Below are positions 42,107-55,045 of a stretch of 64,000 bases of DNA, piece by piece. Below the pieces are notes generated by a model. It had not been told where the DNA came from. It did no database searches and was given only the letters and a program-made list of their open reading frames with translations. The number at the start of each line of letters is the position of its first letter. Positions within the stretch are counted from its first letter, which is position 1. Origin of the DNA: Cuniculiplasma divulgatum (GTDB lineage: Archaea; Thermoplasmatota; Thermoplasmata; Thermoplasmatales; Thermoplasmataceae). Made by a program: the position numbers and the translations under genes. The stretch covers positions 1,512,877 through 1,576,876 of the forward strand of contig CP133595.1 in assembly GCA_031200235.1 (NCBI GenBank). The letters are read 5' to 3'.

Positions 42107-43396
42107 ATGATATCGGCGTTCGAGGCACAGTATTATCAGATAAGTCTTATCCTTATACTTGCAGCCTTCGCCATACCAATATCAAGGAAAGCAGCAATTG
42201 CTGATATACCAATACTCATAATTCTTGGGATAATATTCGGGCCTGTTCTTGAGATCATAAACCACACCTTTGCCTCAAACTTCCTCACCCAGTTCGGGGA
42301 GATAGGAATTGGTCTTCTCGGCATAATGATCATCCTGTATTACGAAAGCCATCACATGAATTTCAGGGTCATACGGAGGCACTTTTTCAAGATAGCATCG
42401 CTGGATACCATTGGGGTCATCATCACCGCTCTGGTGGCCGGGTCAATCTTCTCCCTTATCTTCAGGGCACCGTTTTCAATAGGTTTCCTGTTCGGAGCAA
42501 TAATATCTCCTACAGATCCTGCAACGCTGATTCCACTGTTCAAGAGAATAAACATCAAGGACGATGTCTCCGGGACTCTTGTCGGCGAGAGCCTTTTCAA
42601 TGATCCCATCGGTATAATCCTGGTTTCTGTCGCAATACTTCTCATTGCTCCAAACTCAACCTACATATCTTCCTTCTCCGGCATAGTGACAAGACTTGGC
42701 TTTGCCTTTGGTTCCGTGGTATATTTCATCATACAGATCGCAATACCGTCGCTTATAGGCATATTCGTAGGTTTCACAGTCATCATCCTGAATCGGTTCC
42801 TGAATTTTGAAAACCTCATAGTTGGACTCCTGCTGGGCATAGTGATCCTGGAATTCACAATAATGGAGGCTGTGGGAATCACGCCCTTCCCTGCAATTAT
42901 CGCAACCGGAGCAATAGTGGGCAACTTTTCTGACAAGAGCATATTCTGGAGCAGGGAAGAGAGTTTCCAGGAAAACCTGTCATTCCTGGCACAGGCAGTG
43001 ATATTCCTGAGCCTCGGGAGCATGCTCACACGGCTGGAGATAGAACAGTATGCCCTGATCGGAATTGCCATGTCACTTCTGGTTATATTTGTGGCACGGC
43101 CCCTCGCTGTGTTCGGGTCCCTCTCATTCTTTCCAAAGAAGCGCAGCCGATCCGCTGTGGACAGAAGAACCATGGGTTTCTACTCCCTTGTGGGCCCAAG
43201 GGGAGTGGTATCAGTGGTAATGTCAACTGTCCCCTATACAATTGGGGTTACAACAGGCAACCCACTCCTCCTTCACTATGGTACAATAATAGCGGTGGTT
43301 GTGTCGTTTGTGGTGCTCTTCTCCATAATAATACAGACAGTTTATATTCCCATTGTGGCAAAAAAGCTTCTCAAGCCACCTCAGAATGGCTCCTAA
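42107..43396 (+). CDS. Cation:proton antiporter (CPA1/NhaP-like)
   Basis: A 429-residue protein with about 12 membrane segments. The ion-binding region ISPTDPATLIPLF and ESLFNDPIGIILVSVAIL match CPA1 antiporters, which exchange Na+ or K+ for protons and matter for pH homeostasis in acid. No cytoplasmic regulatory domain. It follows nadE by 10 bases and its end overlaps the convergent ATPase gene by 4 bases. Confidence 0.88.
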   Translation: MISAFEAQYYQISLILILAAFAIPISRKAAIADIPILIILGIIFGPVLEIINHTFASNFLTQFGEIGIGLLGIMIILYYESHHMNFRVIRRHFFKIASLDTIGVIITALVAGSIFSLIFRAPFSIGFLFGAIISPTDPATLIPLFKRINIKDDVSGTLVGESLFNDPIGIILVSVAILLIAPNSTYISSFSGIVTRLGFAFGSVVYFIIQIAIPSLIGIFVGFTVIILNRFLNFENLIVGLLLGIVILEFTIMEAVGITPFPAIIATGAIVGNFSDKSIFWSREESFQENLSFLAQAVIFLSLGSMLTRLEIEQYALIGIAMSLLVIFVARPLAVFGSLSFFPKKRSRSAVDRRTMGFYSLVGPRGVVSVVMSTVPYTIGVTTGNPLLLHYGTIIAVVVSFVVLFSIIIQTVYIPIVAKKLLKPPQNGS

Positions 43397-44814
43397 AGCC
43401 CGAGTATCTTCAGTGCCCTTGTCGGATCCCTGGAATACAGGGAGAAGAACTCGAAAACCTGATGGAATCCTGAAATGCCCATCTCCGACATCTTCTGCAG
43501 AACAGCCTTTCTAAGCATCATATTCTGCATAAGAGACTTCTCTTCAGTGCCTTCCCTGGCGGAAATACGCCTGAACACGTAGCTGTAACCCGAGTATGTG
43601 TATCTGCCCTTCTCGAACCTGAATATTGAGTTGGTCACTATATCGCCGCTTCCGGAATCTATCCCGACAATCTCTGCGACCTCCCCCACGTATCTCTTGA
43701 GCCTGCCATTTTCAATTCCGGTCTTCAGAACTATGATGGTATCCAGTGACGCGGTGAGGTTTCGTGGAATGCTTATTGGTTTTGATTCCAGCCTGTGGAT
43801 GAATGTGGAAACATCATCAGCATGGAATGTTCCCATTCCGAAGCGCCCTGCAGACATTGCCTGGAAAACCGTGAAGGTTTCATGTCCCCTCACCTCACCC
43901 AGAATTATATAATTGGGCCTGTGCCTGAGAGATGATTCAAGCAGGTCGAACATGCTTATCTCACTGGATTTCCCGCTCTGGTTTTCATCTGTTCCGGGAG
44001 TAACACGGGTCACGGCAGCTATCCAGTTCTGATGCGCAAGGTTGATCTCCCTGGTATCCTCAATGGTCACTATCTTTCTGTCCGGAGGTATGAAGGAGAG
44101 AACCGCGTTGAGGAAAGTGGTTTTGCCGCTTGCTGTGCCTCCCACTATCATTATGTTTGCACCACTTTCGATGATTGTCCACAGGTATGCCATTACGGCG
44201 TTGTCAGCAGTGCCGGTATCCATGAGATCAACAGGGCTCATGGGTGTTTCCCTGAATCTCCTTATGGAAAATGTTGGGCCCCTGGATGTGATATACCTTC
44301 CAATGGAAGCCTGAAGTCTTGATCCGTCGGGCAGTGTAGCCTCCATTATTGGCGAAGATGCGGAAATCTGCTTGCCCCCGAACTGGGAGAGTCTTCTCAC
44401 ATAGGAGTTCAGCTCCTCCTCGTTGCTGAACACTATGCTGGTGGGGATGTAACCGTACTCCCTGATGAAAACATATACCGGAATGCCAGGACCATCGCAT
44501 GAAATATCCTCAATTCTCGGGTCATGCATCAGCGGTTCAACTATCTGTAAACCTATGGCATATCTGCTCACATAGTAAAGCAGTGCGCGCAGGGGCCGGT
44601 TTCCATGGTTATGTGCCTCAATATACTGTTCAACAGTCTCTGTACCGGGATTGTCCAGGTACGCTGATCGGATCCTGTCGACCTCCTTCATTATATCATC
44701 ACTGGGAGTTCTTTCAATGATCCTGTAGCTCACCTTTCCATCATTATCTCTGGCTATACGGACCTCAGCAACTCCCCCTTCAATGTCGTATTTTTCCAGC
44801 ACTTCATGATCCAT
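43393..44814 (-). CDS. Type II/IV secretion ATPase, second copy (TadA/PilB family)
   Basis: A 473-residue hexameric secretion ATPase. Walker A is GGTASGKTTF (about 218-227), the Asp box is VTIEDTREINL, and Walker B is YIILGEVRGHE, followed by GTFHADD. The N-terminal 50 residues (EKYDIEGGVAEVRIARD) match the start of the first ATPase of the operon, so the two arose by duplication. It is the last gene of the unit, one base after the second platform protein. Archaeal pilus systems often have one ATPase, so a second suggests separate extension and retraction or two substrates; that is inference. Confidence 0.88.
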   Translation of the reverse strand: MDHEVLEKYDIEGGVAEVRIARDNDGKVSYRIIERTPSDDIMKEVDRIRSAYLDNPGTETVEQYIEAHNHGNRPLRALLYYVSRYAIGLQIVEPLMHDPRIEDISCDGPGIPVYVFIREYGYIPTSIVFSNEEELNSYVRRLSQFGGKQISASSPIMEATLPDGSRLQASIGRYITSRGPTFSIRRFRETPMSPVDLMDTGTADNAVMAYLWTIIESGANIMIVGGTASGKTTFLNAVLSFIPPDRKIVTIEDTREINLAHQNWIAAVTRVTPGTDENQSGKSSEISMFDLLESSLRHRPNYIILGEVRGHETFTVFQAMSAGRFGMGTFHADDVSTFIHRLESKPISIPRNLTASLDTIIVLKTGIENGRLKRYVGEVAEIVGIDSGSGDIVTNSIFRFEKGRYTYSGYSYVFRRISAREGTEEKSLMQNMMLRKAVLQKMSEMGISGFHQVFEFFSLYSRDPTRALKILGL

Positions 44815-49148: not shown

Positions 49149-49220
49149 GGGCCGGTAGATCAGAGGTAGATCGCTTCCTTGGCATGGAAGAGGCCAGGGG
49201 TTCAAATCCCCTCCGGTCCA
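49149..49220 (+). tRNA. tRNA-Ala (anticodon GGC)
   Basis: A 72-base cloverleaf folds by eye. The acceptor GGGCCGG (49149-49155) pairs with CCGGTCC (49213-49219) and includes G3-U70, the alanine identity pair. The anticodon stem CTTCC/GGAAG has loop TTGGCAT with GGC at 49181-49183. The T arm is AGGGG-TTCAAAT-CCCCT and the discriminator is A. CCA is not encoded and there is no intron. A TATA-like AATATTTATAGG lies about 50 bases upstream, and a small hairpin (TGTCT/AGACA) lies in the leader. Confidence 0.95.
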
Positions 49221-49794
49221 CATTTACAGAAATTCAGTATGTTTGCACACCATAACCATTTTTCTTACTTTATTTATTCATATAAAATCATGATTGTGAG
49301 ATACAATATTCAGTGAACATTAGTTAAACGGTGAGTTGTTCAATACTTATGGAAAAGTCCACCGATCTAGATACAGTGCAGTCCCCTTCTTTTTCATGAA
49401 ATCTCAAGACATGTTTCCATTAATATGGGACTTACACAAAATTCAGTATACTATCCTTCTCAAGCTGGGATGCAAGAATGGCCACAACAACTTTACTGGC
49501 ATCCTGAGGTGTCATCTCATAAAGCACGACGAGGAAGAAGAAAAAACTCTCAAAGTCTATAAATACGGCAGTCAGTTTCCTGTCTTTCATAAGCAGAACA
49601 CAAAAATATATTCGAATTTCCATAACAGAGTTTTTCCCGGATTTATATCTGTCACCACTGCTTCTAGCTAAGTTTTATTCTAGGGTCTTTTCACCTGCCT
49701 GGTCACCTGTATTTCAGAGAACAAATCTTTGATTTGCAATTGTCCGGAAATGATTGAGAAACACTCTTAAAATACCTATCGGTTAAGAATCGGG
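49221..49794. other. AT-rich stretch after tRNA-Ala, no intact gene
   Basis: About 570 bases with no full gene. The only coding-like piece is a short minus-strand frame at 49432-49623 described separately. No copy of the tRNA 3' end was seen by eye. Confidence 0.5.
49432..49623 (-). pseudogene. Possible truncated NYN-domain (PIN-like nuclease) gene
   Basis: A 63-codon frame. Its middle reads LTAVFIDFESFFFFLV, close to the opening strand of NYN/LabA-type nucleases (AVFID with acidic residues), and continues MTPQDASKVVVAILASQLEKD before a stop. Whole NYN domains need about 140 residues, so this is a fragment at best. TATA-like AGATATAAATCC lies about 25 bases before the first ATG. The assignment is weak. 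Confidence 0.3.
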
Positions 49795-51566: not shown

Positions 51567-52529
51567 TCAATAACCCGCTGTACCCATTTCTAATCTGTGA
51601 GGCAAGTAATGCTTTTCAATTCTCTTTACTTGGTCATCTGTTAGTGATATCTCTAGGGCCGTAGCAACATCATCCAAATGTTTTTTCTTGGAAACCCCAA
51701 CAACAGGAATAAACTTTTTTTGTAATACATACGCAAGCGAGATGGCATATTCTGTGGCAGACTGTTCCTTTGCTATAGCTCTTATATCATCTAGGACATC
51801 AAAATCGTTTTCCTTAAAGTATCTGTCGAGCATTACGGAGTATTCCTTTGATCGAATCGATTTTGGCGCGATCCCGCGCTCATATTTTCCAGAGAGAAAA
51901 CCCGCTGCCAGTGGACTGAAAGCGGAGAAAGATATCCCTTTATTAATACAGTAAGGAATCACTTCACGTTCATCTTCCCTATAGATTGCGTTATAATGGT
52001 TTTGCACGATTTGCGGCCTTGCCAAATCCTTGTCTTCCGCAAAACGGTCTATTTCAGCGAGTTGATATCCTTTTATATTGCTCAGACCGAAGTAACCAAT
52101 CTTATTAATTTCCACGTATCTGCTGAAAGTTTTCAGGATATCCACAGTATCCAACCCGTCAAACCAGGTGTGTGACAAATATATATCAATGTAATCTGTC
52201 CTTAATCTCTTCAAGGATAAATTCAGCTCAAATTCTACTTCTCTTCTTGCAAACCCATGGTGTTTTTCACTTATTTTCCCACCTACTTTCGTTGAAATGA
52301 TAAATTCCTCACGCTCATCTTTTATGAACTCACCGATTATCTTCTCGGATTCACCCGCGGAGTAAATATTTGCAGTATCGATATAATTTATCCCCAAGTC
52401 AGAGGCTTTCTTAAGTATGGTCTTCGCGTCCTCAGAATTAACCATCCATCCTGAAGACCCAAATGACATTCCTCCAAGGCAGACCTAGGAAACTTTTAGA
52501 TCTGTTTTGCCGAGATGCATGTACCTCAT
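51567..52529 (-). pseudogene. Aldo/keto reductase with an in-frame amber codon at codon 15
   Basis: From the ATG at 52529 the frame reads MRYMHLGKTDLKVS, then TAG at 52485-52487, then VCLGGMSFGSSGWM and on without a break for about 305 codons. This is the exact N-terminus expected of the family (LGKTDLKVS-x-VCLGGMSFG), with a stop in place of x. Downstream, the catalytic residues in NYIDTANIYS, STKVGG and IYLSHTW are intact. A TATA-like CTATATTAAG sits about 26 bases before the ATG. The frame from the ATG at 52469 would lack the first beta strand. Either a fresh nonsense mutation, an internal start, or readthrough. Confidence 0.8.
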
Positions 52530-52550: not shown

Positions 52551-52560
52551 CTTAATATAG
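52551..52560 (-). promoter_or_regulatory. TATA-like box of the amber-interrupted reductase
   Basis: CTATATTAAG on the minus strand is centred about 26 bases before the ATG at 52529, not before the ATG at 52469, which supports 52529 as the original start. Confidence 0.5.
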
Positions 52561-52777: not shown

Positions 52778-54058
52778 CTAGCGAGAATTTCTCACTATCA
52801 GTACAGCTATACCAGCTACAAGCACAAAAAATGCCATAGCATATACACCACTGACAAATGAATGTGTATAGCTTTCAAGTCCGCCAACGAGAATAGGCCC
52901 AACCACACCTCCCAGATTTCCAATTCCGTTGATAAGACCTATGGAGGCGGCAGAACTTTCTCTTTTCAAGGATTCCTGTGGAATGTTCCAGAACACTGGA
53001 AGGAAGCTGAAAATGCCAATCGCAGAGATTGTGAAAAAGATAAAGGAAACAACTACGTTTGATATGAGAAATGCGCTTAGTGCAAGCCCACCGGCAGCAA
53101 CAAAGAATACTGCAGCTGTAAGACGTTTTCTATTACCTTTTTTATCTGAATATCTTAATATAAATATTAACGCAATAGCAGCGACAACATAAGGTATATC
53201 TGAAAGAAAACTGGATGTGGCAGCGCTCACGTGCGCAAAAGAACTTATTATTGATGGTAACCAGATCGTGTATCCATAAAGCCCAGTTACACCAAGGAAG
53301 TAAACAAGCACTAGGAGAAGAACATCCCTTTCAATCAATGCCTCCTTCCATGATGACTTAATGGGCTTATCTGCTTCTTCCTTAGCCAATTCAGATTCAA
53401 GAGCTTTTTTCTGGTCATCCTTAAGCCATTTAGCATCTTCCGGAAAATCATTAATCGTAAACCACAGGATTACAACTGATACCAATGCGAGAATACCCTC
53501 GAAAATGAAAAGATATCTCCAGCCGGGATCATTCCCGTATGCTGTGAATATTCCACCGGCAATTAGACCGCCAAATATGCCAGCAACAGGGATAGCAGCA
53601 TTGAAATATCCATTAGCAAGGCCCCTCTCGCTTTTTGCAAACCAGATACCCATAAAGAACATAACACCCGAATAGAAAGGAGCCTCAGCAAGTCCGAGTA
53701 TGAACCTGAGTGCATACATCTCTGGGACATTTTGTACAAAGCCAGTTAATATAGTAATTATGCCCCAGGCCGTGAAAGCTCCAGCAAATATCTTTCGGAT
53801 ACCAACGTTGTTAATCTGCAAAGTTGTAAATACTTGCGGGATTGCATATGCTACAAAGAAGAGAGCAGATGCAATGCCTGCAATTAAAGACGCACTGCTT
53901 GCAGGTGCTCCTATATCTTTAAACATTCCGGCATCGATACCGTATGAAAGGTTCACTCGATCAAGAAAATTTACAACGTATAGAAAAAAAAGTATAGGTG
54001 CAATTCTTAAATATCTACTAGTTCTCGAGGACTTCAATACTGCTATCTGGTTTTCCAT
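52778..54058 (-). CDS. MFS transporter, anion:cation symporter (ACS) type
   Basis: A 426-residue transporter with about 12 membrane helices. The start with FLYVVNFLDRVNLSYG, the helix 4-5 motif RFILGLAEAPFYSGVMFFMG and the central loop FPEDAKWL are typical of the ACS family, which takes up sugar acids such as galactonate, glucarate or hexuronates, as well as other organic anions. It is upstream of the reductase and IlvD-like gene on the same strand. TATA-like CATATATCATT lies about 27 bases before the ATG. It is flanked by the diverged repeats A and B. Confidence 0.88.
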   Translation of the reverse strand: MENQIAVLKSSRTSRYLRIAPILFFLYVVNFLDRVNLSYGIDAGMFKDIGAPASSASLIAGIASALFFVAYAIPQVFTTLQINNVGIRKIFAGAFTAWGIITILTGFVQNVPEMYALRFILGLAEAPFYSGVMFFMGIWFAKSERGLANGYFNAAIPVAGIFGGLIAGGIFTAYGNDPGWRYLFIFEGILALVSVVILWFTINDFPEDAKWLKDDQKKALESELAKEEADKPIKSSWKEALIERDVLLLVLVYFLGVTGLYGYTIWLPSIISSFAHVSAATSSFLSDIPYVVAAIALIFILRYSDKKGNRKRLTAAVFFVAAGGLALSAFLISNVVVSFIFFTISAIGIFSFLPVFWNIPQESLKRESSAASIGLINGIGNLGGVVGPILVGGLESYTHSFVSGVYAMAFFVLVAGIAVLIVRNSR

Positions 54059-54125
54059 GCGAAAAATATAAGCTAATGATATATGAATTTTGCGACATCG
54101 TAATATTTCATGCCGATGGATACTA

Positions 54126-54521
54126 TTATTTAAGGTACAGTTCCCTGTAATCTTTTACCATCCTCGAGCCCGTATGCCCCAGGTTGTGCGTGTCGATCTC
54201 CAGTATTTCTTCTGTATTCTTTCTAAAAGGCTGCTTCTTCCTTACATTTACGGGCACCTTCTTCATCATCGGGTTCACAGATTCTAGTATTGATCGCATG
54301 TGATATTCATCCAGCCATTTCTAAGTGTCATCCGTGAAACTGTAAAGCATCTTCTTCCATGATTTTATTCCCTTAGCACGGAATATTGATTTCGTCTTTA
54401 GGAGGAAATACGGTTTTATCCCATAACTTTCAGTGATGGCGCAACATCCCATCCGGGTACGGAATGAAGGAAGGGAGACGCATGCTGAGCCACGAGGAGT
54501 TATACTCAAGATCAAAAACAC
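54126..54521 (-). pseudogene. Decayed DDE transposase, C-terminal fragment
   Basis: On the minus strand the translation runs through ESYGIKPYFLLKTKSIF, SWKKMLYSFTDDT, a TAG at 54321-54323, then KWLDEYHMRSILESVN and a tail ending in a normal stop at 54126-54128. The YHxRSxxESV pattern with the preceding helical part is typical of the last catalytic region of IS5/IS1182-like DDE transposases. The N-terminal two thirds are missing, so this is a dead remnant. Confidence 0.6.
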
Positions 54522-54573
54522 GTATCCCTGGCCAGTTCATGGAATCAGAACTGGCTAAAATGTTATACAAGAT
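54505..54573 (+). repeat. Diverged repeat, copy A
   Basis: Partner of copy B at 52607-52676, same direction. It sits at the junction of the two transposase fragments. On the plus strand it can be read as a short peptide (RIPGQFMESELAKMLYK), and copy B reads as a worn version, so it may come from a coding part of an element. Confidence 0.5.
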
Positions 54574-54934
54574 CATACTCTTCAAGTGCATTTTCCCTTA
54601 TATATTCCGTGAGTGATCTGTTCGTCCACATTTTAGATCTTTGGCTTAGATCGGAAGGTTTTATGCATGCAATCCCTATAAGGTATGACGTTGTGAGATC
54701 ACTGAGGCTTCTGGATTTTCCTAGTCTCCTGGTATCATGCATGAGAGAATCGATGCCCAGTGCAAGAGCTCTGTTCATTATCTGGCATACCTTCTGCTTG
54801 TTGATGGAAAGTGATTCGGCTATATTATCTCACTTCTCGCATTATGCATACAGGAAGAGGGCCTCTGACCTCTCAACAGTCCTTGCTTCATCGATCATTG
54901 ATGCTGAAATTCTCTTCAGCATCGCCCCCCTCAT
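54563..54934 (-). pseudogene. Decayed IS630-like transposase, N-terminal fragment
   Basis: Minus-strand frames contain ASMIDEARTVERSEALFLYA, a frame break near 54840, then AESLSINKQKVCQIMNRAL and SYLIGIACIKPSDL with MWTNRSLTEYIREN. The helix-turn-helix followed by the P-S-D-L and W-T-x-R-x-L-x-x-Y-I pattern is that of IS630-family transposases. The DDE catalytic half is absent. Frame breaks show it is inactive. Confidence 0.55.
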
Positions 54935-55045
54935 CGCTAGATAGTTTCAGTGCACCTTTTGATTTCTTAAACACAATAGTAACATATTAAGATAGAGTAT
55001 TAATAATAACATTACTATGGAAACGCTATACTAGTTTAAGTTAGG

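Follow-up and report, generated by a model that had tools for sequence, protein, structure and literature searches.

A probable recent nonsense allele of an aldo/keto reductase gene in the archaeon Cuniculiplasma divulgatum

Recent prokaryotic pseudogenes created by a single nonsense mutation carry one premature stop, have an intact orthologue in a sister lineage and show no further damage. The recoding of interrupted genes is also documented in some archaea, as reviewed in PMC8211752, and according to PMC4153887, pyrrolysine occurs in Methanomassiliicoccales, which are related to the organism studied here. We analyzed a stretch of 64,000 nucleotides from the acidophilic archaeon Cuniculiplasma divulgatum (the window; positions 1512877-1576876 of a 2.0 Mb single-contig genome), in which a gene of the aldo/keto reductase (AKR) superfamily (Pfam PF00248) is interrupted by an in-frame TAG. 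This gene shares all three features of the recent single-nonsense pseudogenes, with no evident difference from them in its sequence. Like the pyrrolysine proteins of Methanomassiliicoccales, it has an in-frame TAG and belongs to a member of the archaeal class Thermoplasmata, but it differs from them in that PylS, PylB and a tRNA with a CUA anticodon were not found in the genome and the TAG is not conserved in its orthologues. Judged by sequence, its closest relatives of known structure within the AKR superfamily are DepB (8hwn), an aldo/keto reductase (4xk2), AKR6D1 (8hw0) and IolS (1pyf). Like members of that superfamily, it matches the family over its full length past the stop and keeps the tetrad residues; unlike them, it is interrupted at codon 15, so standard decoding is not expected to give an intact enzyme. 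We consider the gene to be a recent nonsense allele of an accessory enzyme gene, with a probability of roughly 0.73.

The interrupted frame and its orthologues

The AKR gene occupies 51567..52529 on the minus strand and comprises 320 codons followed by TGA, as delimited by translation, the PF00248 match and full-length orthologues. Its frame starts at the ATG at 52529 and reads ATG AGG TAC ATG CAT CTC GGC AAA ACA GAT CTA AAA GTT TCC TAG GTC TGC CTT GGA GGA ATG ... to the TGA at 51569-51567. The TAG is codon 15 (52485..52487, minus strand), and the 305 sense codons that follow it contain no further stop. From the next in-frame ATG, at 52469, there remains an open reading frame of 300 codons (51567..52469, minus strand), which scores 216 bits with the Aldo_ket_red profile (cut-off 24) and covers positions 7-290 of its 291. 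D51, Y56, K81 and H120, which we take to be the AKR catalytic tetrad (Asp, Tyr, Lys and His), are invariant across a six-sequence alignment. The profile match and the tetrad place the gene in the AKR family. Because the family runs on in one frame on both sides of the TAG, the stop does not belong to a chance frame. Misannotation of the start site was rejected as well: there is no in-frame ATG, GTG or TTG between the TAG and 52469, and the alignment with the orthologues begins at the ATG that precedes the TAG.

We compared the gene with its orthologues in a sister species of the same genus, the closest relative compared (G001), and in two more distant genomes (G013 and G022). When the TAG was read as X, the frame aligned across all 320 positions, with 89% identity to the sister and 55% and 53% to the two family-level orthologues, and none of the three has a stop at the TAG site or elsewhere. 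Codon 15 is a sense codon in each of them, CAG (Gln) in the sister and Arg in both distant orthologues. The sister gene also has the same neighbors. A TATA-like box, TATATTAA, lies 23-30 bases upstream of the ATG (52552..52559, minus strand) and would act as the promoter; sister and window are near-identical at this box, at the start codon and in the surrounding block, including the 5' coding region. The preliminary description had reported an in-frame amber codon in an otherwise intact reductase, a promoter, a start and flanks on both sides of the TAG that fit the family, and 305 undamaged downstream codons. These observations held up in the translation, the profile match and the alignment, in which the gene shows no indels relative to the sister, and comparison with a sister species, where it had proposed sister strains, yielded a sense codon and an intact gene.

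We infer that a Gln codon, CAG as in the sister, was changed to TAG by one transition. In most of the genes inspected the start is not preceded by a Shine-Dalgarno motif, and in several an AT-rich, TATA-like stretch lies some 25-30 bases ahead of it. This pattern suggests that such starts, that of the AKR gene included, belong to leaderless transcripts. On the probably leaderless AKR transcript, ribosomes would decode 14 codons before the ordinary release factor ends translation, with a presumed loss of AKR activity. The sister reads TCT CAG where the window reads TCC TAG; two adjacent differences are slightly unusual for one simple event, though one of them is synonymous.

The main rival to a recent nonsense mutation is a sequencing or consensus error, which would leave the organism with a sense codon and a functional AKR. 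An error would fit a gene that is otherwise undamaged and under purifying selection, and whose orthologues have a sense codon at the site. However, the change is a substitution and not an indel, the type of error typical of long reads, and the neighboring genes, compared against the 25 kb sister contig, show no frameshift, which suggests an accurate assembly. The change creates the motif CCTAGG, which occurs a single time in the window (expectation 1.4), a count that by itself is uninformative on methylation-linked miscalling. We regard an error as unlikely and the TAG base as presumably real.

The AKR gene is flanked by an MFS transporter gene and by the dihydroxy-acid dehydratase gene ilvD. 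Because ilvD is preceded by its own TATA-like stretch, the AKR stop should have no polar effect on it. Orthologues of AKR and of ilvD were each found in two of the five genomes of the genus, and neither was found in G003, which is 95% complete. This patchy distribution fits accessory, losable genes. Redundancy through a close paralogue was rejected, the other three AKRs of the genome being only about 31-34% identical. Elsewhere in the window, beside tRNA-Ala(GGC), the two species differ in content: the sister has about 2.6 kb (L038:16025-18619), including an MFS-like and a TetR-like open reading frame, and the window has less than 0.6 kb (within 49149-49793). This site is possibly an insertion hot spot.

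Decoding of TAG in the genome

In principle a suppressor, a near-cognate tRNA-Gln or some recoding system could read through the TAG, an explanation favored by the preserved downstream frame, by the archaeal recoding precedent (PMC8211752) and by the reported occurrence of pyrrolysine in the related Methanomassiliicoccales (PMC4153887). The preliminary description had listed readthrough among its options and proposed a search for a suppressor tRNA or pyl genes. We identified 46 tRNA candidates with the Rfam model and read the anticodons of all; none was CUA, though an aberrant tRNA scoring under the threshold of the search could escape. Profile searches of the genome gave at best 31 bits for PylS (cut-off 178) and 11.5 bits for PylB (cut-off 348); in the control searches, one of 14 control genomes scored above the cut-off. 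The proposed search thus came back empty, and pyrrolysine or a suppressor tRNA was rejected as the means of decoding the codon.

In both species TAG terminates ordinary genes such as those at 52778-54058 and 43393-44814, and the MFS transporter gene adjacent to the AKR gene is among the genes that end with TAG in both. Genome-wide reassignment of TAG was rejected on these grounds. Since TAG is a normal terminator here, readthrough is not supported; it is further disfavored by the CAG of the sister, which means that the TAG is not conserved, and we consider it very improbable. Of the four explanations offered in the preliminary description, recent mutation is thus the best supported, given the sister codon, and readthrough finds no support. 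In this Thermoplasmatales genome, then, TAG serves as an ordinary stop, and both a pyrrolysine system and an amber suppressor tRNA appear to be lacking.

Other interrupted genes were surveyed in the MFS, ABC and zinc-ADH families. An MFS gene at G000:C1:1909372-1910493 keeps its full frame apart from a lone in-frame TGA, so isolated nonsense lesions in this genome are not amber-specific, a further point against readthrough of the AKR codon. An ABC transporter ATPase gene at G000:C1:235814-236252 is decayed and broken at several points, with stops and a frame break. Among the tRNAs, three are unusual: an intron-bearing tRNA-Tyr (GUA), an intron-bearing tRNA-Met (CAU) and an inferred tRNA-Trp. 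The probable tRNA-Trp (G000:C1:1270200-1270380) is split by an intron that weakly matches the box C/D RNA sR3, below the gathering score.

Restart downstream of the stop

Alternatively, ribosomes might stop at the TAG and restart at the ATG at 52469, yielding a still-active AKR of 300 residues. This ATG sits 15 bases past the TAG with a GGAGG (52471-52475) ahead of it, and the 300-codon frame retains the catalytic tetrad and almost all of the Pfam profile. However, a single base separates the GGAGG from the ATG, whereas the spacing is 4-13 bases wherever such a motif precedes a window gene, and conserved Gly-Gly codons account for the GGAGG. A low-confidence structure prediction for the intact orthologue (mean pLDDT 65) assigns residues 17-19, before M21, to the first barrel strand, which would be missing from the restarted protein; the product from 52469 would therefore probably be defective. 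We judge reinitiation with an active product to be improbable. Equally improbable is that the enzyme is still made at a low level, through near-cognate decoding or reinitiation at 52469, with selection keeping the downstream frame.

Age of the lesion and selection

Between window and sister, the AKR pair has a dN/dS of 0.149 at a dS of 0.337. The median dN/dS of 18 neighboring gene pairs, picked by hand, was 0.056, and AKR ranked above 17 of them, with one pair higher. Set against its neighbors, the AKR gene thus diverged mainly under purifying selection, with a modest excess of replacements. This rank is consistent with weak constraint, a short recent unconstrained period, or both.

We polarized the changes with two outgroups. 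The window keeps the outgroup state at five sites and the sister at two; the window branch is not the faster-changing AKR lineage. By a simple Poisson bound, neutral evolution that lasted beyond about 10-30% of the window branch would exceed the replacements seen, the exact limit varying with the baseline chosen. If the gene is dead, its loss would date to roughly the final 10-30% of the time since the window and sister genes diverged. The preserved frame, the dN/dS and the polarized changes without decay in the window lineage exclude an old pseudogene, in agreement with the preliminary description, which had found such preservation odd for one. With a recent nonsense mutation, the rest of the frame would still look intact because there has been too little time for decay. 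The undamaged downstream frame is, however, equally expected of a working gene, whether through consensus error, readthrough or reinitiation.

For annotation, the gene is best marked as interrupted and probably a recent pseudogene, and not taken as evidence of recoding; its wider import is small. In contrast to the AKR frame, a stretch next door at window positions 54100-54960 has stops in all frames and no match on the sister contig; this decayed stretch retains protein-like fragments on the minus strand.
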